A stretch of DNA of 25,019 bases from a virus. Positions 6,668 through 25,019 of the stretch are shown here, piece by piece. The position numbers and the translations under genes were made by a program. Positions within the stretch are counted from its first letter, which is position 1; each line of letters starts with the position of its first letter. The DNA lies in IMG/VR virus record IMGVR_UViG_3300020165_000141, positions 1 to 25,019 of that record; one strand, 5' to 3'. Under the pieces are notes generated by a model. It had not been told where the DNA came from. It worked only from the letters and a program-made list of their open reading frames with translations, and searched no databases.

Positions 6668-8284
6668 TTAAACTTGATCGATATCAGTAACGATAACTTT
6701 ACCATAGAATTCTGGACGAACCATCTTCTTAGCATAGCGTGTCATTACACCTTTACGTGGAGTAAAGTTCTTCGGATCATAAACCAATGGAGTCATAATC
6801 ATCGGTACATATGGAGCATAAACAGCACCAGTTTCTAAGAAATTACTTCCTCTGAAACCCATAAGGATGCTATTATCTAACATATAAGGATTCTTATAAA
6901 TCGTAAATCGGTTATTGATTGATCCAACTGCTTCAACACCCATTGAATAGGTTTTAGCAGATGCATCACCTGTATTCTGTAGATATCCTGTTACAGACTC
7001 TAAGATTGTTGCGGTTTCAGGAGAAACAACAGCAAAATTAGCACCACCACGTAGTGTTTTCTGATGGATAGCATTAGAAACAGATTGCATTTTGATACCT
7101 AATGTTTGAAACCATTGAGATTTCGTATAAGCATTAGAAGCACCACTTATCTGTGAAAAAGCACTAGCGCCTGTTCCGGAACCATCATACTCATATCCCA
7201 CCTTAGCGGACCAGTAGTTGGTTTTAGCAGCTGCATTAGCCTTTAACATATCGATTATTTCTAAATCAATTTCCATAGCGATATATTCACTTAACATAGC
7301 AGTTAATTCAGCTTCAGCATCAACAGAGTGATAAGCGTTAAGATCTTGAGCAAGCTCAGGAGTCCAAACAGCTTTCAACTTACGTGTCTTAGCAACGATA
7401 GCTTCACTCTTTAACTGAATGTCAATTTCTGGAATATCAATATCAGTTTCAGGATTAGCATCTATGTTAGCGGCTGTGGCTTCAAAATCACCACGGTTTG
7501 TAGCAACTGGCTGTTCATGATATCTTACACCAAACAACTGACCATCAGCTGCTGTAATTTTAGCAAAGAAACTAGCAGTTGTCTCTGCAGCATTTACACT
7601 AGAGTATGCTGGGAATGTAGCGGTTATACCTGAACCACTAAGTTCGAAAGCACGGATACCATTATAATCAGGTCTAGTAAGTCCACCTGTACCAACTTGA
7701 ACTTTTAATAGAGTTCCATCGGCTACGGAAGCACTTAAATCCGGCTCAAATTCTACTTCTTTCCAAGTAGCAGAACCTGTTGTCATTCCAAGAGGTGTTA
7801 TTCCTGTTAAGGATTTGTCGTTAATTGAATATCCAAATTTACCAGCACCATACAAACCACCACTAGCATCAGCGTTAGATGCAGAAGTATTACCAAATAC
7901 ATCTGTATTCTCTGTATGATTAGTTTGGTCTGCTGTACCATATTTGAAATCCAAAAAGAAAATTAGACCAGAAGGTAAGTTCATCGGCTGAACACTAACA
8001 AACTCTTGTGCTGATAATTCACCGAAGATTCTACGAACCAATGGTAAAGCAACACCAGACCATTCTTCTTTAGATCCACCAGTGCCTGTCTGTGACGCCT
8101 CTTTGATAAGCTGCGTAGCCTGGTTTTCTAAAAGAACAGCCATTCCTGTTTTCTTAGTGGAGTCATCGATTCCGTCTAACAATCCGGTTGGCTCCCATTT
8201 GCCGACTAATTTACGAGTCTGCTTTAGAAGCTCTTGATGAGGGTTATGACCACCCATCAAATCGTTTATTTTTAAATCTGACAT
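6668..8284 (-). CDS. Major capsid protein, gp23-like
   Basis: The protein has 538 residues, close to T4 gp23 (521). It forms the hexamers of the head shell with the HK97 fold. Residues about 78-118 (LPLVRRIFGELSAQEFVSVQ, then PMNLPSGLIFFLDFKYG) match the T4 region with MVRRAIPNL and GVQPMNSPTGQVFAL. The C-terminal part has ETGAVYAPYVPMIMTPLVYD and a TPRKGVMTRYAKKMVRPEFY block typical of this family. An N-terminal propeptide is expected: LIKE62-A63 matches the T4 site after FLTE65 in sequence type and position, so mature protein probably starts at Ala63. The start has GGGAG upstream and lies 15 bases after the scaffold stop. A strong terminator follows the stop. Confidence 0.95.
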   Translation of the reverse strand: MSDLKINDLMGGHNPHQELLKQTRKLVGKWEPTGLLDGIDDSTKKTGMAVLLENQATQLIKEASQTGTGGSKEEWSGVALPLVRRIFGELSAQEFVSVQPMNLPSGLIFFLDFKYGTADQTNHTENTDVFGNTSASNADASGGLYGAGKFGYSINDKSLTGITPLGMTTGSATWKEVEFEPDLSASVADGTLLKVQVGTGGLTRPDYNGIRAFELSGSGITATFPAYSSVNAAETTASFFAKITAADGQLFGVRYHEQPVATNRGDFEATAANIDANPETDIDIPEIDIQLKSEAIVAKTRKLKAVWTPELAQDLNAYHSVDAEAELTAMLSEYIAMEIDLEIIDMLKANAAAKTNYWSAKVGYEYDGSGTGASAFSQISGASNAYTKSQWFQTLGIKMQSVSNAIHQKTLRGGANFAVVSPETATILESVTGYLQNTGDASAKTYSMGVEAVGSINNRFTIYKNPYMLDNSILMGFRGSNFLETGAVYAPYVPMIMTPLVYDPKNFTPRKGVMTRYAKKMVRPEFYGKVIVTDIDQV

Positions 8285-10543: not shown

Positions 10544-11395
10544 TTACTTTACAAATTTAAATGCTATCTTAGCCATTTTCATCAGGGGTTGTGAGGTAAA
10601 TTTCTTTTTATTTGATGTATTAATAGCATCATATACCTTCACAATAGCATTAGCAGTATATCCATCTACCCTCATTTTCTTACCAGATACAGGATCCTTC
10701 ATAACTTTATTCTGTTTTTTCTTTACGATATCCCTAAGATCAACTATTACAGGTGGTTCTTTAACTTCATTCACACCTTCTTTCTTAACTTTGGTGCCCT
10801 TGTGCTTTTTAATTTTTTTAGCCATTTTGTCACCCAAGCCCTCATTAGCTTTTCTAAGAGCATATTCTACTCTACCATTTTTAGATAATCCCTTAGCCAT
10901 CTTTTCAATCTTCTTTACAGCGGATGTCATATTACCACCCATTCTCTTAGCTAACTTAACTGCGGCATCAACCTTTGCCGATGGAAACATTTTTGTAGTA
11001 CCTTCTTTAATTTTTTTACCACCCATCTTGTTATAAACTTTTATTAATCTTTCTAAATGATCTTCATCTCTAGCATTCTTAACCATTCCTTGCTTTTCAA
11101 TTTTCTTTTTAAACATAAGAATTGCATCTCTTAGCTTACCAATTTCAAGCGGATTACCTTCGTTTATCGATTCTTTCTTTAGACGACTCTTTTCAGCTCT
11201 ACCACGATTTTTAGATTGTGATTCAAATCCCACGATTTTTCCCCTTTTATGTGAGGCGTCCTTGCCATCACCGTTACCATAAGTACCCTTCTTTCGATTG
11301 TACTGATTTAATTCTGCTCTGTACTTCTTAGACTTTGTAGAAGATTGAAATTTCTTGTACTCTGCCTTGTAATCTCTTTTTTTAGCCTCATCCAC
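10544..11395 (-). CDS. Basic protein with degenerate HNH-like N-terminal domain
   Basis: The protein has 283 residues and is very Lys-rich. Residues 1-75, with RDYKAEYKKFQSSTKSKKYR, GDGKDASHKRGK and SKNRGRAEKSRLKK, resemble the small HNH-type domain (DHKDGN...NLR...SKNR) that occurs in many phage proteins. Here the usual Asp-His pair and Asn are not intact, so catalysis is doubtful. The rest is helical, with INEGN and KIKEGTTK matching prohead-protease sites, which suggests a core protein processed in the prohead. The only usable start is GTG at 11395, with a poor ribosome binding site. The frame is open upstream to the TGA that ends the DUF3008-like gene, so the two reading frames are in phase and separated by that one stop. 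Readthrough giving a fusion is possible. Confidence 0.65.
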   Translation of the reverse strand: MDEAKKRDYKAEYKKFQSSTKSKKYRAELNQYNRKKGTYGNGDGKDASHKRGKIVGFESQSKNRGRAEKSRLKKESINEGNPLEIGKLRDAILMFKKKIEKQGMVKNARDEDHLERLIKVYNKMGGKKIKEGTTKMFPSAKVDAAVKLAKRMGGNMTSAVKKIEKMAKGLSKNGRVEYALRKANEGLGDKMAKKIKKHKGTKVKKEGVNEVKEPPVIVDLRDIVKKKQNKVMKDPVSGKKMRVDGYTANAIVKVYDAINTSNKKKFTSQPLMKMAKIAFKFVK

Positions 11396-11617: not shown

Positions 11618-12223
11618 TTATCCTCTCAGTATATCATTAATTACCGATTCAACCTTACCATACTTTGAATCACGGACAGTTGAGTGTTCCACACTCTCAT
11701 TCATTCCGCCAGCAGGATACATAAAAGCACCATGCGTAGATGGATTGGATACGAAATCAAATGCAATCAATTCAAAATCATCCTGTACCTCACTAGCACC
11801 CTCAGTTACGGATTCAACCGAACCCATACCACGGGAGCTGATACCTAACTTAATACCGCTCTTAAATAATTCTTTTAGTATGTTACCGCTTGGAGTTGGT
11901 AGAACCTCTACAGTTCCAACCAAATCATCACCATTCCAATTCATCTCTGTAATATTATGTGATACATTGGCTAGGTTCACAACGGATGATTCAGGGTGAT
12001 CTAATTCACCCATAGCCCTTTTCTGATTAATAAAATTCTGAAAATACTTCTTAGCCTCACGCATTAGTATTTCTTTTGGGTATACCCTACCATTCTGATT
12101 TTTGGTGTCTGCTCTTTGGAGAACACCCTTAACAACTAACTTTCCGTTGTTCTCTTTCATAGCCTCACTTATTTGGTTAGGCTGTATTTCAAATGGTAGA
12201 TAATCTACTATTAGTTGTTTCAT
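11618..12223 (-). CDS. Prohead core protease, gp21-like
   Basis: The protein has 201 residues, close to T4 gp21 (212). This serine protease sits in the prohead core, cleaves the capsid protein, digests scaffold and core proteins, and finally itself. The family motifs are in order: NQNGRVYPKEIL (about 42-53), GELDHPES with the catalytic His76, GISSRGMGS with the nucleophile at Ser129 or Ser130, and FDFVSNPST with Asp156. Likely self-cleavage sites are ISE20-A and VTE-G near residue 141. The ATG directly follows the preceding stop. The gene stands upstream of scaffold and capsid as in T4, but five genes, including bS21, are inserted between. The cleavage specificity known for this family is what makes the linker motifs of the 1616-residue protein worth noting. 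Confidence 0.94.
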   Translation of the reverse strand: MKQLIVDYLPFEIQPNQISEAMKENNGKLVVKGVLQRADTKNQNGRVYPKEILMREAKKYFQNFINQKRAMGELDHPESSVVNLANVSHNITEMNWNGDDLVGTVEVLPTPSGNILKELFKSGIKLGISSRGMGSVESVTEGASEVQDDFELIAFDFVSNPSTHGAFMYPAGGMNESVEHSTVRDSKYGKVESVINDILRG

Positions 12224-19419: not shown

Positions 19420-22400
19420 TTACCTCGTAAACTTTAATATTCCTAATATCTGATTAACAGGTGCAAATGCGCCTGTGTATTTGTAAACCTTACCCTTAAA
19501 CACAAATGTAATTCCTTCGCTTGGTACAATAGCATCAAACCCACCTAATGCTTGTAACCTATCTAATTGAGTTTTTAGTAGTCCCATCTGTTTTGGGTCC
19601 TTTGCATTTTTTATTTTTTTAATAGCAGTAGTTAAATCCTTCTTCATCTTTTGTACAGCTTTGTCGGGGTTAGCTGCTATAAAATCCTTCATATTCTTTA
19701 GTATCTCAGCTCCTAACTCAAAGAAAAGAACTTCCCAATCTCTGATATGTTTTTTCTGTAACTTAGCGTGGTCGTTTTTATCGGTAGATAAAACCCACTC
19801 TAAAAACTTAGGATGTTCCTTTAAATCTTTTTTAATCTGTGGTATCTTATATGATTTATCAAAGAAAGCCCATCTTTTTAAAAGTCCACCCATTACATTA
19901 TTTGTTACATTAGGATTATCTGTCTGTTTTCCAGCATTAAAGATATACTCATACCAATATGCTTGATGATAATCTGATAATGTATCCGTATTTTTTAACC
20001 CATATGTTTTTTGTAATTTATTTAGTTTACCTAAAAAGTAGCTTTGTCTAGCAGAAAAATTCTTTACCTTTGGTAAGTTAGCAACAAATGGTTGGGTTAT
20101 GCTGTATGTCTTTTGTATGTCTTGATTTATCTGTTTTATCATACCAGCCAACATTCTAGCACTACCTCTATCCTCTCCTTGTGGAGTACCAGCCGCATCG
20201 TATTCTATAGTTCCGTGAAATTGTAAAAGTGCTTTATTATATGGTATTACATTTGTTGTCTTTGGATACATAACCTCTAAAGACATAAATTTCTTACCCT
20301 CTGCAAATATCTTATCCTTTTGTTTTTTACTTAAACCTTTAAGAGCTATCTGTAAATCAAACATAGCAGATACAAAAGCCTTTTCTATATCACCTCTACC
20401 AGCAAACATATTCTTTATGCCACCGATATCTAATGCTGCTGCACCAAAGTTTTTAATATGTCCTTTATTTCTAGCAGCAATAAGTTTATTATTCTTCCAA
20501 CTTATCATTATATTCTGACCATCAGTTTTTTCTGTAACTGCGCCTTCACTACTAAGATTACCCTGTAATGTGTTAATAATTAGTGTTTTAAAATCTGAAA
20601 ATGTAAGATTTTTATTGTCAAACGGATGACTTAAATGTCCGTATGCACCACCCATAAGCAGTAGCTCCTTTCCTTTATTTCTTTGTGTTAAAATATTTCT
20701 TGCATTAATACTCTCATAAAATGTATCTTTAGTAACCTCATATGAGTCACCATCAGCACCTGTTATCATTAGGTCACCTATAATATTATCGATAGCGGCT
20801 TCCGTACCCATCCAACTTACTATTTCCCAACCTAAAGGTTTTACCACCTCTTCCATCCAAGCTTTGTATTTATTTATAGCGCCTCTGGATCTTTTTGCTT
20901 CACCATGGTCTAAGTGAGTTACATCAACTGAACGATAGTGTTCTTCTCCAACCTTTCTTCTTTTATGTACATCATCAGCCGCTGAAACATTATCCTTTGG
21001 ATCTATTGCGTTTTTATTTATTGCATAATCGACAACCTTCCACCCAGCGCCACCATATATAGAATCTATCCAATCGGTAGCATCCTTTTTGTATTTAGCT
21101 AAACTCCTATAATATGTTGAAGGTCCATCATCTAAATTACCATCAGGAGTTCCTGAAGCTTCTAATAAGAATTCCTCAATAAGTTCATCTGATAAGGTAT
21201 ATGTTTCAAATAGCTTCTTAAAACTATTGGTCATCATAGTATACACACTCTTATCATAGTATCCAAATGATTTTTTAAATAGTTTTTGCCTTTCACTATC
21301 ATCAATTTTTGGGTCTCCCAATAATTGTCTCATCTTAGTACCGCTAACATTACCCGATGGTGGAGCGGTTACAAAGTATCCATGCTTTTCAAATCCAACC
21401 AAATCATTCTTATTTTTATTATAGTCTTGATAGTAAGATTTGCTACCATCCTTCTTAGTTCCTGATTTTAATCTACCAGCATCCTTTGAACCGAAAGCAT
21501 ACACAACTGCAGTTTTATCTGAATTAAATTTCTTTAATAGGTTGACAGCCACATATGGAGACTTTTCATTTACAATACGATTTTTTGGAATACCCATTTT
21601 AGACATATGTAGAGCCTTTTCCTTAAAATTTAATGGATGTCTCGGTGGCTGCTTTATGTTAGATGTTGTTATGTACACCTCATTAAACTTTGACTTTAAC
21701 CATTTATAGGTAGCCATATGTCCCGAATGAAATGGTTGAAATCTACCACCATATATAGCAATAGTTTTTTTGACTTCTGAAGCCTCATTTATACCTCTAC
21801 CACCCTTATCCATCTTAGAAAATTTCTTTAACTTATCAAATGCTCTAAACTTCTTCATCTTATTCTGTTTATGCCATTTCATCTTATCAAAAACTTTCAT
21901 TCTCATATGCTGTTTTACGATGTAATAGATATCAGTTGGATTACCACCCATTGACCTTATCCAAGTTCTATACTTCTTAACCAACTTAGCAGATACATGC
22001 TCGTGTCCATAATGAGTCCAAAAACCTTTCTTTGGATGTATCTTTGCTGTTGAGTCCTTTCCTATATCGTGAAACAATGCTGATAAAGCAAAGTCTATAT
22101 CACCTGTTTTCAATGCTCTGTTTGTTACGGCAATCGTATGTTTTAAAACATTACCCTCCGGATGAGCATCCCTTCGTTGGTCATAGTTTTTTAAATTCAT
22201 AACCCTCTTCTTTAAATCACTTGGAAGAGCATCATAGATATCTCTGAATTTCTTAGGTTTAGGTCGAACTGCTATTTCTTTTAATTTTTTACCAGTATCG
22301 GTTTTTGTAAATGGACCTCTTCGTAATGTTGAAAATTTTACAGGTGTTTCAATACCAAATAATTTTTTAGGTGCTATGATTTTTAACTTAATCATCTTTG

Positions 22401-24270
22401 AACTATTATCAACACCCAATGTTTCAAATTCTATTTCTTTATACTTCTTACCCTTCATAGTAAGATTGTGACCTGTAATAAACTTTTCTACTTTACTACC
22501 CCTTACGGCATTCGCTTCATTTAAGAAATTATCCTTCTCCATCTTCTGTATGGCTTTACCGATTTCCTTTCCCTTTACATCTTTAGGAACATCACTTCCC
22601 TTTACAGATAGTTTAAACTTAACCATCTTTTTTAAATCTTTTTTAATATACTTACCCCATTGAATAATTTGATCATCAGTTAAGGATGTTCTTTCTTGAA
22701 ACTTTTTGGTTAGAAATATATTCTCAGGCTTAAAGCTCTGTAATACATTTAAGAATTGAATGTTCTGTGCTTCATCTCTTGGGTATTTTAATTTGTTTAA
22801 TTTACCACCCAATGAATTAGCATCATTCTTTCTTAAAATCCAAGCCAATAATAATATATGGTCATTCTCATCTATATATGGTTTACTCACCTTTAAACCT
22901 GGTAGGATTTGGTCTGTAAACTTTAACTCATCTGTTTTCTGTAGGTAGTTTTTGGTTGACTTTGCTTTCTTAATCGACTTAACAAACTCATCCCTAATTC
23001 TTTCACCACTAATACCTTTAAGACTTGGATTATCCATTAGAGCCTGCTTGGTATCCTTTGACATCTTACCACCAAGAGCACCGTGAAATCTAAGGGCTCT
23101 CATCTTTCTTAGTGGGTCCTCATCAAATCTATCACTAGCTTTTCCAACAGTTCTTATCTTTCTCTTCTTTAAATCTGCTATACCACCAACCAAATCAACT
23201 ATATCCTTTCTATCTATATCGTAGAAAAGAGCGTTTATGGTTAAATCCCTTCTCTTTACATCACCCTCAATATCCGTATAATCAACAGCACTCGGTCTCC
23301 TACCCTTTCCGATATCCTTTCTAAATGTTGCTATCTCGTGTCCACCTACTATCACGACACCGAATTGTTTTCCAACCTCTACGGTTTTCAATCCACCCTT
23401 TTTAGCTATCGCCAATACCTCATCAGGTTTAGCATCTGTAGCTAAATCAAAATCTTTTGGGCTTTTTCCTAATATTGCATCCCTTACGGCGCCACCAACC
23501 ACGAATAGTTTCTTACCGCTCTTCTTAAAGAGTTTGTGTATTTTTTTAATATCACCTGGAATATTAAGTTTAAGTTTCTTTTCTTCTTTCAAAAAGGTCG
23601 TATTATCCCCATTATCAACTATAGAATATACAAACTTTTTAGTATACAAGTCAAGACTTTCTTTTATTTTTTTATAACCGCTTCCGTATGGTACAGATGT
23701 GTTACCCTTTCTTTTCATCTTCTTTACACCCTTACGGCTTGGTGATGGTAATGTGCCAGCTGGCGCTCCGAACTCTTCGTTCTTAGCCTTAGTTTTCTTT
23801 TTCATCTTATTGATGTAAGCACGATATATTGCTGCTTCCGAACTCTTACCCATTTCACGGGCTCTCTGTTCCATAGCAACTGCTGCTTGTATCTTATGTG
23901 CGTGTTTTTTACCGCTACCCTTAATCTTACTGACAGATGCCTTAGCATCCTTAACTGTAGCAAACTTTAATCCCTTAATTGTTCCCTTTGGATTTTCATC
24001 TGTGTATAAATCTGAATGAGATGATGAACCACGATGTTGCCCTTTCTTCCGTGGTTTTCTCGGTGCCTCATTTACCTTCTTAACCATCCTAAATTTTAGA
24101 GCAGGTCTACCATTTATAAGCAAATCACCCTTTTCATTGTAATCTATGTCTTTGACAACAACCTTCTTATTCTTAAACCTACCCATAAGAATAGTATCGC
24201 CTATATCTATAGGCAATTCTATGGTTTCTTCTATTATTGGATTAACTAAACTATCTATTAATGATTTCAT
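19420..24270 (-). CDS. Multi-enzyme polyprotein: CCA/PAP-like, HD, NMNAT-like and ligase domains
   Basis: One uninterrupted frame of 1616 residues. Order: a small beta domain (about 20-62); an LYTDENP-type domain (86-160); a Pol-beta type tRNA nucleotidyltransferase/poly(A) polymerase head with VVGGAVRDAI (257-266), DFDLATDA (273-280), RRDLTINAL (340-348) and RFDEDPLRKMRALRF (381-395); helices and a beta region to 670; an HD domain with His703, His711 and FHDIGKDS (733-740); a Rossmann nucleotidyltransferase with GGRFQPFHSGH (841-851) and SGTKMR (976-981); an unrecognised domain (1045-1180); and a covalent nucleotidyltransferase/ligase domain with KTDG (1248-1251), SLEVMYP (1330-1336), EGITFVF (1585-1591) and KVYKYTG (1594-1600). 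The start overlaps the kinase stop (ATGA). Linkers carry VNEA, IKES, LNEA, INEA and LLEA. RNA or tRNA repair, possibly with NAD synthesis, is inferred from the domains; polyprotein processing is a hypothesis. Confidence 0.88.
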   Translation of the reverse strand: MKSLIDSLVNPIIEETIELPIDIGDTILMGRFKNKKVVVKDIDYNEKGDLLINGRPALKFRMVKKVNEAPRKPRKKGQHRGSSSHSDLYTDENPKGTIKGLKFATVKDAKASVSKIKGSGKKHAHKIQAAVAMEQRAREMGKSSEAAIYRAYINKMKKKTKAKNEEFGAPAGTLPSPSRKGVKKMKRKGNTSVPYGSGYKKIKESLDLYTKKFVYSIVDNGDNTTFLKEEKKLKLNIPGDIKKIHKLFKKSGKKLFVVGGAVRDAILGKSPKDFDLATDAKPDEVLAIAKKGGLKTVEVGKQFGVVIVGGHEIATFRKDIGKGRRPSAVDYTDIEGDVKRRDLTINALFYDIDRKDIVDLVGGIADLKKRKIRTVGKASDRFDEDPLRKMRALRFHGALGGKMSKDTKQALMDNPSLKGISGERIRDEFVKSIKKAKSTKNYLQKTDELKFTDQILPGLKVSKPYIDENDHILLLAWILRKNDANSLGGKLNKLKYPRDEAQNIQFLNVLQSFKPENIFLTKKFQERTSLTDDQIIQWGKYIKKDLKKMVKFKLSVKGSDVPKDVKGKEIGKAIQKMEKDNFLNEANAVRGSKVEKFITGHNLTMKGKKYKEIEFETLGVDNSSKMIKLKIIAPKKLFGIETPVKFSTLRRGPFTKTDTGKKLKEIAVRPKPKKFRDIYDALPSDLKKRVMNLKNYDQRRDAHPEGNVLKHTIAVTNRALKTGDIDFALSALFHDIGKDSTAKIHPKKGFWTHYGHEHVSAKLVKKYRTWIRSMGGNPTDIYYIVKQHMRMKVFDKMKWHKQNKMKKFRAFDKLKKFSKMDKGGRGINEASEVKKTIAIYGGRFQPFHSGHMATYKWLKSKFNEVYITTSNIKQPPRHPLNFKEKALHMSKMGIPKNRIVNEKSPYVAVNLLKKFNSDKTAVVYAFGSKDAGRLKSGTKKDGSKSYYQDYNKNKNDLVGFEKHGYFVTAPPSGNVSGTKMRQLLGDPKIDDSERQKLFKKSFGYYDKSVYTMMTNSFKKLFETYTLSDELIEEFLLEASGTPDGNLDDGPSTYYRSLAKYKKDATDWIDSIYGGAGWKVVDYAINKNAIDPKDNVSAADDVHKRRKVGEEHYRSVDVTHLDHGEAKRSRGAINKYKAWMEEVVKPLGWEIVSWMGTEAAIDNIIGDLMITGADGDSYEVTKDTFYESINARNILTQRNKGKELLLMGGAYGHLSHPFDNKNLTFSDFKTLIINTLQGNLSSEGAVTEKTDGQNIMISWKNNKLIAARNKGHIKNFGAAALDIGGIKNMFAGRGDIEKAFVSAMFDLQIALKGLSKKQKDKIFAEGKKFMSLEVMYPKTTNVIPYNKALLQFHGTIEYDAAGTPQGEDRGSARMLAGMIKQINQDIQKTYSITQPFVANLPKVKNFSARQSYFLGKLNKLQKTYGLKNTDTLSDYHQAYWYEYIFNAGKQTDNPNVTNNVMGGLLKRWAFFDKSYKIPQIKKDLKEHPKFLEWVLSTDKNDHAKLQKKHIRDWEVLFFELGAEILKNMKDFIAANPDKAVQKMKKDLTTAIKKIKNAKDPKQMGLLKTQLDRLQALGGFDAIVPSEGITFVFKGKVYKYTGAFAPVNQILGILKFTR

Positions 24271-25019
24271 TTAAGTCGCTTAGACCTTTTTTGTCGTGAT
24301 TTAAAAAATTGAGATTGGCCTGGATCTTTAAATACTTTTTGAAATTTCTTTTCTTTTCTTAACCAAGCCTTTCCAACCTTACTCTTAATTGGTTTTTTAA
24401 GGAACTTATCAATACCCTTACCAACCAACATCTTAAATCTTTTCTGAGCGGTTTCCACATCTAAGAATTTATTATTATCAACTATTAAAAAGTTAGAACC
24501 ACCGAATAACCCCTGAAAGAATGCTAGATTTGATTGAACATCCAACCAACTCTGCTTAACAATTTTCTCAGGAACAACCCTAGCCCTTTCCTCATTTCTC
24601 TGCAAAGCAACCGCCATAGATGTATTGACAAATACCATATAGGTATCATATCCTAACTTAATTAAATCTTTTCTCTTTTTTGCTACAGAATCATATTTAT
24701 GACCGGTTCCATCAATGATAACTCCCAGCCTACCCTCAGTATATAATCTTAATCTTTCTTGACTTAGAGACTTTGCATATTTTCTCAAACCGCTTGTATC
24801 GTAATTAACTTCATTTCCATCCCTATCCACACCCGTTAGGTCCTGAAACAGTTCATCCGGCATAATATCTAAATCGGTAGTACCATAATATTTCTTTAAT
24901 AACAATTCCAATTCGGAGTCCTGATTTACCATCTTTAAACCTGTTTTGGATACATTTATCTTATCAGGTATACCGAATAGCTTACCAGCGACATATGACT
25001 TACCACTACCTGGTCCGCC
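24267..25019 (-). CDS. P-loop kinase, polynucleotide kinase / zeta-toxin-like, N-terminus off the window
   Basis: The frame is open to the right edge, giving 250 codons; the true start lies outside. The first visible residues are the Walker A loop GGPGSGKS, so only a few N-terminal residues are probably missing. LGVIIDGTGH (Walker B-like) and RNEERARVVP (an Arg-rich lid) follow in the order of small kinases of the polynucleotide kinase, zeta toxin and AAA_33 group. The last 50 residues are very basic (KAWLRKEKKFQKVF, SRQKRSKRLK), suggesting nucleic acid binding. The stop TGA overlaps the ATG of the 1616-codon gene, so the two are translationally coupled. A 5' end-healing kinase acting with the downstream ligase and HD domains is the most economical reading; the substrate cannot be told from sequence. 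Confidence 0.78.
   Translation of the reverse strand, partial: GGPGSGKSYVAGKLFGIPDKINVSKTGLKMVNQDSELELLLKKYYGTTDLDIMPDELFQDLTGVDRDGNEVNYDTSGLRKYAKSLSQERLRLYTEGRLGVIIDGTGHKYDSVAKKRKDLIKLGYDTYMVFVNTSMAVALQRNEERARVVPEKIVKQSWLDVQSNLAFFQGLFGGSNFLIVDNNKFLDVETAQKRFKMLVGKGIDKFLKKPIKSKVGKAWLRKEKKFQKVFKDPGQSQFFKSRQKRSKRLK

Follow-up and report, generated by a model that had tools for sequence, protein, structure and literature searches.

A 1616-residue multi-enzyme protein of a marine T4-like virus with predicted prohead protease sites between its modules

Gene content and module organization

The window, that is, the whole stretch of DNA analysed (25,019 nt; positions 1 to 25,019 of IMG/VR record IMGVR_UViG_3300020165_000141), comes from a marine T4-like virus and carries a long gene for a polyprotein made up of several enzyme-like modules. 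The features are given below, with all residue numbers being those of the encoded protein and slashes marking the bond after Glu.

19420-24270 (-): polyprotein gene, 1616 aa; ORF confirmed, 79 homologous loci
24226-24270 (-): N-terminal leader MKSLIDSLVNPIIEE, capsid-targeting-like, probable cut at IIE/E or IEE/T (residues 12-16); from homologue starts and T4 ipII/ipIII
24085-24225 (-): module D1, residues 16-62 (DIGDTIL...GRFKNKK); shared block, position changed in locus L060
24064-24075 (-): predicted cleavage site VNE/A, residues 66-69; motif scan, breakpoint 65
23782-24057 (-): module D2, residues 72-163, mobile cassette in many phage proteins; 68 distinct contexts
23773-23784 (-): junction KNE/E, residues 163-166; breakpoint 165
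23671-23772 (-): module D3, residues 167-200; homologue alignments
23656-23667 (-): predicted cleavage site IKE/S, residues 202-205; motif scan, breakpoint 205
23581-23592 (-): possible site LKE/E, residues 227-230; breakpoint 231
22546-23553 (-): CCA-adding/poly(A)-polymerase-type tRNA nucleotidyltransferase module, residues 240-575; PF01743 1e-29, PF12627, phrog_2244 4e-62
22513-22524 (-): predicted cleavage site LNE/A, residues 583-586; motif scan, breakpoint 583
22297-22506 (-): module D6, residues 589-658, no function assigned; moves independently in L019, L038 and L060
22273-22284 (-): possible site LKE/I, residues 663-666; breakpoint 663
21811-22218 (-): HD phosphohydrolase-type module, residues 685-820; PF01966 5e-7, confident model
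21781-21792 (-): predicted cleavage site INE/A, residues 827-830; breakpoint 826 (40 alignment ends), ORF split in L024/L025
21217-21771 (-): NMN/nicotinate-mononucleotide adenylyltransferase-like module, residues 834-1018; PF01467 1e-9, Foldseek top NadM/NadD
21202-21213 (-): possible site LFE/T, residues 1020-1023; LFE/S in many homologues
21157-21168 (-): predicted cleavage site LLE/A, residues 1035-1038; motif scan, low-confidence linker
20731-21144 (-): module D9, residues 1043-1180, no function assigned; family alignment
20710-20721 (-): predicted cleavage site FYE/S, residues 1184-1187; motif scan, low-confidence linker
19423-20673 (-): RNA-ligase-like module, residues 1200-1616, with KTDGQN nucleotidyl motif; alignment, weak RNA_ligase Pfam match, fold search
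24267-25019 (-): P-loop kinase gene (Zeta/PNK-like), cut off at the window end; PF06414 6e-6, GGPGSGKS at the window end
11618-12223 (-): gp21-type prohead protease; Peptidase_S77 6e-30, GELDHP and ISSRG aligned with T4 gp21
10544-11395 (-): second candidate multi-module core protein, with INE/G and IKE/G between blocks; motif scan
8096-8107 (-): gp23 propeptide cleavage site IKE/A, gp23 residues 60-63; I[KD]E/[AS] in homologues

A structure model of the C-terminal half (mean pLDDT 71) contains confident units at about residues 834-1018 and 1214-1614, with low confidence between them. The model of the N-terminal half was poor (mean pLDDT 49.5) and was therefore used for the HD module only. In a fold search, the first of the confident units matched NMN/nicotinate-mononucleotide adenylyltransferases, and for the second, viral RNA ligases were listed weakly; the family alignment contains the ligase-type motifs KTDGQN, SLEV and SEGITF. 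A profile search against PDB sequences gave no credible match for D9 and, for the ligase, returned ribosomal protein eS6 only, at a helical region and judged spurious. The motifs of the enzyme modules look intact (GRFQPFHSGH, KTDGQN, HD and the nucleotidyltransferase DFD) and are conserved across divergent loci. Several of the activities are predicted from sequence or fold. Judging from the CCA enzyme, the HD module, the adjacent P-loop kinase and the other domain identities, the likeliest role would be that of an RNA-repair and NAD-related kit.

In many homologues, the polyprotein opens with a kinase leader block, RDPGIFKAIFLAGGP, similar to the kinase at 24267-25019, and in many the first module after the leader also starts like the window kinase (DPGIFKAIFLAGGP). 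The product of 10544-11395 (283 aa, in the core region) opens with VDEA when read from its called GTG start and may therefore begin further upstream.

Position of glutamate motifs relative to modules

The first-pass annotation had listed five matches to [ILV]xE[ASG] in the 1616 residues. A motif scan gave the same number, VNEA (66-69, rather than 67-70 as first given), IKES (202-205), LNEA (583-586), INEA (827-830) and LLEA (1035-1038), and all five lie between domains and none inside one, as had been claimed. Two related motifs, FYES (1184-1187) and FAEG (1322-1325), are likewise where they were said to be, the former at a junction and the latter within the ligase. In the model of the C-terminal half, INEA, LLEA and FYES fall in low-confidence stretches and FAEG in a confidently predicted helix. 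Five such motifs are not unusual for the composition of the window protein (shuffle mean 2.8, P(>=5) = 0.14); an argument from their number was therefore dropped, and the signal lies in their position.

Further Glu sites, which had been overlooked, occur at the end of the leader and at residues 163-166, 227-230, 663-666 and 1020-1023. In the last four (KNE/E, LKE/E, LKE/I and LFE/T), Glu is followed by a residue other than A, S or G. The position behind Glu is thus freer than in the original pattern, and several junctions fall outside it.

Whether linkers carry such sites across the family was assessed with 60 non-redundant homologous ORFs, which contain 194 short module junctions. Every one of the 194 has a Glu, and 151 have [ILVF]xE; the other 43 are mostly K-N-E at the D2/D3 boundary. 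The first-pass annotation had named linkers without the motif in homologues as evidence against its proposal, and this outcome supports the proposal. Judged by T4, sites are poorer at those junctions where P3 is not hydrophobic (K-N-E) or where Glu is followed by E, F, Q or N. In short linkers, with leaders counted among them, the density of [ILV]xE[ASG] is 20.6 per 1000 residues vs 1.38 in modules, an odds ratio of 15 (p 5e-60, relatedness ignored), and in seven divergent representatives it is 24 vs 1.1 per 1000 aa (p 2e-11). Substitute residues in place of the Glu gave no comparable linker enrichment in the non-redundant ORFs. The density comparison is partly circular, since module edges were set on the window protein with the motif known; the breakpoint and D2 tests described below are free of this circularity. 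Matches inside modules nearly all lie at the very start of the ligase block, within ten residues, apart from a VDEA that recurs within the adenylyltransferase block of many homologues, where the window protein has FNEV. Confinement of the motif to junctions therefore describes the window protein but not the family as a whole.

Module shuffling in homologous loci

A single scan of IMG/VR provided 79 related loci, and their ORFs, when aligned to the window protein, show that the blocks vary in set and order. Modules D1, D2 and D3 are accompanied by the CCA, D6 and HD blocks in some ORFs and not in others, and in L060, D2 precedes D1. In L024 and L025, two ORFs encode the protein, separated at residue 825/827, and both products have a leader of their own; in four other loci (L064, L065, L075 and L078) about 12 residues are followed directly by a block starting at 827. 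In L054, L055 and L058, the ligase block is spread over two ORFs, with its N-terminal part downstream of its C-terminal part.

Breakpoints were defined solely by the ends of alignments against differently arranged homologues, and in the window protein they fall at residues 65, 165, 205, 231, 583, 663, 826 and 1198. Four of the five motif Glu residues are within 6 residues of a breakpoint, a distance at which 6.4% of residues qualify (P 8e-5). The fifth follows the folded adenylyltransferase, ahead of the next module, where the confidence of the model is low. Over 371 breakpoints in 58 ORFs, a Glu motif is present within 5 residues of 19% of breakpoints vs 3.9% of residues (4.8-fold), and when D, K, N, Q, S, T, R, A, G or P stood in for the Glu, the value at these breakpoints was 0-0.9-fold.

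Module D2 was also searched alone, as an independent cassette test. It was found in 68 distinct protein contexts, of which 64 have a Glu within the four residues upstream (20% background in the same ORFs). The sequences flanking D2 on both sides are very diverse, and some of those upstream are very short leaders (MKTFKQYIEA and MKTFRQFVE, for example). Similar Glu boundaries surround D2, or another small module (GWSDKYKKSIDCNNPKGFSQKAHCAGKKK), in the cultured cyanophages P-TIM68 and S-SM2, the exception being S-SM2_109, in which D2 opens the protein.

At the nucleotide level, 105 junction sites are encoded by 81 distinct 12-base sequences, codon use is near background (Glu GAA/GAG), and Ser is coded by both TCN and AGY. 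This variety indicates that selection acts on the protein rather than the DNA, and a DNA recombination signal was rejected on these grounds.

Prohead protease, gp23 and leader sequences

The gp21-type protease of the window (201 aa) retains the His and Ser motifs of the S77 family. All 18 gp23 homologues that cover the site have I[KD]E/[AS] at the end of the propeptide, close to the position of LTE/A in T4 gp23, and this is the same kind of site as found at the polyprotein junctions. In T4, cleavage by gp21 takes place behind L/I-x-E, and a leader of ten residues is enough for IPIII to be packaged (PMC9026906).

Most complete homologues of the polyprotein begin with M[ND]KLTE[FW]LTKPFLxE or close variants. 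For comparison, T4 ipII and ipIII start with MKTYQEFIAE/A, and the leaders of cyanophage proteins S-SM1_190, P-SSM2_199 and S-CREM2 gp154 are MKKFSAFLNE/A, MKSFSQFLTE/T and MKNFSSFLTE/A, respectively. The window leader is longer than those of IPII and IPIII (Glu at 14-15, not 10) and falls outside the T4-derived pattern, so its support for packaging is by analogy.

Two of these cyanophage proteins are cytidylyltransferases reported from virions: GC190 of S-SM1 (PMC3037559) and gp154 of S-CREM2, one of the 52 proteins of its virion proteome (PMC10665884). Only four ATG-initiated ORFs in 150 kb of S-CREM2 match the T4-like leader pattern, namely gp6 (SAM hydrolase), gp13, gp136 and gp154, and all four are within those 52 proteins, the annotated features numbering 221. 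The pattern was written after the S-CREM2 leaders had been seen, so the test was not blind, but it shows that T4-like leaders seldom occur beyond the virion proteins. The kinase gp14, with the leader KRFDAFLTE/E, is listed in the same proteome. The virion enzymes gp6, gp14 and gp154, reported by mass spectrometry, and the small proteins gp13 and gp136 (L249:3837-13331 and L251) have a common leader resembling those of T4 internal proteins, of which the accessible text of the source paper makes no mention. The Cas9-like gp12 of S-CREM2 has a similar FASFMAE/A near residues 19-26.

Proposed processing and alternatives

We consider it probable (roughly 0.8) that the gene specifies a virion polyprotein of RNA-repair and NMN-adenylyltransferase-like enzymes that is packed in the prohead, cut by gp21 and delivered with the DNA. 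The capsid-targeting-like leader would take the polyprotein into the prohead core, and during head maturation, the phage's own gp21-type protease would cleave after Glu at the hydrophobic-x-Glu sites between modules. Such cleavage would remove the leader and free the small basic modules, the CCA-type nucleotidyltransferase, the HD hydrolase, the NMN-adenylyltransferase-like enzyme, one functionally unassigned module and the RNA ligase. Carried into the cell together with the DNA, the freed enzymes would be active at once, most likely in the repair of tRNA or other RNA and the recovery of nucleotide cofactors that host defence had damaged. Packaging is supported, by analogy, by the leader and by the cyanophage virion proteomes with a related cytidylyltransferase. 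The sequences show the modular architecture, the placement of the sites, a site type that matches the gp23 site of the same phage, the similarity of the leader and the presence of gp21, whereas we infer packaging of the polyprotein, its cleavage, its delivery and the counter-defence role. The first-pass proposal of a packed, cut and delivered protein is strongly supported by comparative evidence.

A polyprotein that is packaged and cut could instead be a sacrificial scaffold or core protein like T4 gp22, its fragments having no enzymatic role after infection. Its gene lies in the head gene block, and the gp22-like core protein of the window likewise has many such sites; however, the sites of the polyprotein avoid folded modules, and a scaffold would need no intact enzymes, so the conserved, intact-looking motifs count against this explanation, which we regard as improbable. 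Slightly less probable is that the Glu sites serve as signals for recombination in the DNA or are left over from gene fusions, with the whole multi-enzyme acting in the infected cell. Modules are indeed shuffled exactly at the Glu sites, but the codons vary freely, which points to a conserved protein motif, gp23 uses the same motif, and the products of gene fission bear new leaders. Least probable of all is that flexible linkers are rich in hydrophobic-x-Glu through composition, with no processing. The linkers are charged and the count of five is within chance, yet linkers are enriched weakly or not at all when the Glu of the pattern is replaced by Asp, Lys, Asn, Gln, Ser or Thr, and moving the linker mask by 60-100 residues reduces the density from 20.6 to 0.8-4 per 1000.

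On balance, although with less confidence than for the window protein itself, we favor a wider reading of cleavage by gp21, in which the prohead protease of marine T4-like phages would have a general role in unpacking: a leader-led chain of Glu-bounded cassettes would be packed, cut in the head and injected as a counter-defence kit, with cassettes crossing lineages, including cyanophages.

Comparison with known systems

The polyprotein resembles the gp21-matured internal proteins of T4 (IPI-III and Alt) in its head gene context and the presence of a gp21-type protease in the same genome, the cut after Glu being a prediction here; its short leader ending in hydrophobic-x-Glu is similar in kind but longer and outside the T4-derived pattern. 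In contrast to those proteins, most of which consist of one unit and lose a propeptide, it has at least six modules per precursor and a site at every junction. The nearest published concept is that of polyvalent proteins with an embedded peptidase, which are large multidomain phage proteins with several enzymatic domains and shuffled architectures, for which delivery with the DNA and release by proteolysis through embedded peptidase domains have been proposed (Iyer et al. 2017, PMC5512222). Unlike these, the 1616-aa protein has no peptidase domain among its Pfam matches, and its sites match a trans-acting prohead protease. Many head proteins of phiKZ, 201phi2-1 and SPN3US are cut after Glu by distant gp21 relatives, and some are ejected, but the reported cuts remove propeptides (S/A-x-E in phiKZ), and a shuffled enzyme polyprotein was not found in the literature searched. 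Nor did we find a phage polyprotein cut by a prohead protease in the open-access literature, although there may be an earlier report elsewhere. The cyanophage cytidylyltransferases (S-SM1 GC190 and S-CREM2 gp154) are also nucleotidyltransferases, with a leader ending in LNE/A or LTE/A and detection in virions by mass spectrometry, but they are encoded by stand-alone genes, and the window module is distant from them (blastp 3e-4 to S-SM1 and 6e-7 to the P-SSM2 homologue, gp154 being left out).

If processing by gp21 is correct, the head protease would be both a maturation enzyme and the releaser of injected enzymes from a chain of exchangeable cassettes, and RNA repair and NAD metabolism would be among the activities supplied as soon as infection begins. 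The proteins that T4-like phages bring into cells could then be recognized by a sequence rule, a leader followed by Glu-bounded modules, which would reach many hypothetical genes. The polyprotein reading can be tested in cultured relatives.

Among cultured phages, the nearest portal proteins (about 49-50% identity) are those of Flavobacterium phage immuto and Microcystis phage Mel-JY01. The latter encodes a 639-aa adenylyltransferase-ligase protein, and immuto gp088 (L168:7132-9855) is a 907-aa adenylyltransferase protein with Glu-bounded blocks, in which nucleotidyltransferase-like, NMN-adenylyltransferase and metallopeptidase-like (HEMIHH) segments lie between hydrophobic-x-Glu sites. In Pelagibacter phage HTVC008M (L161:4583-8776), adjoining genes code for ligase-like, D1-containing, kinase and cytidylyltransferase proteins, the same kinds of function as in the polyprotein but in separate genes; the kinase has the leader MIPFILKE/G, and the cytidylyltransferase starts with MKTLKE/L.
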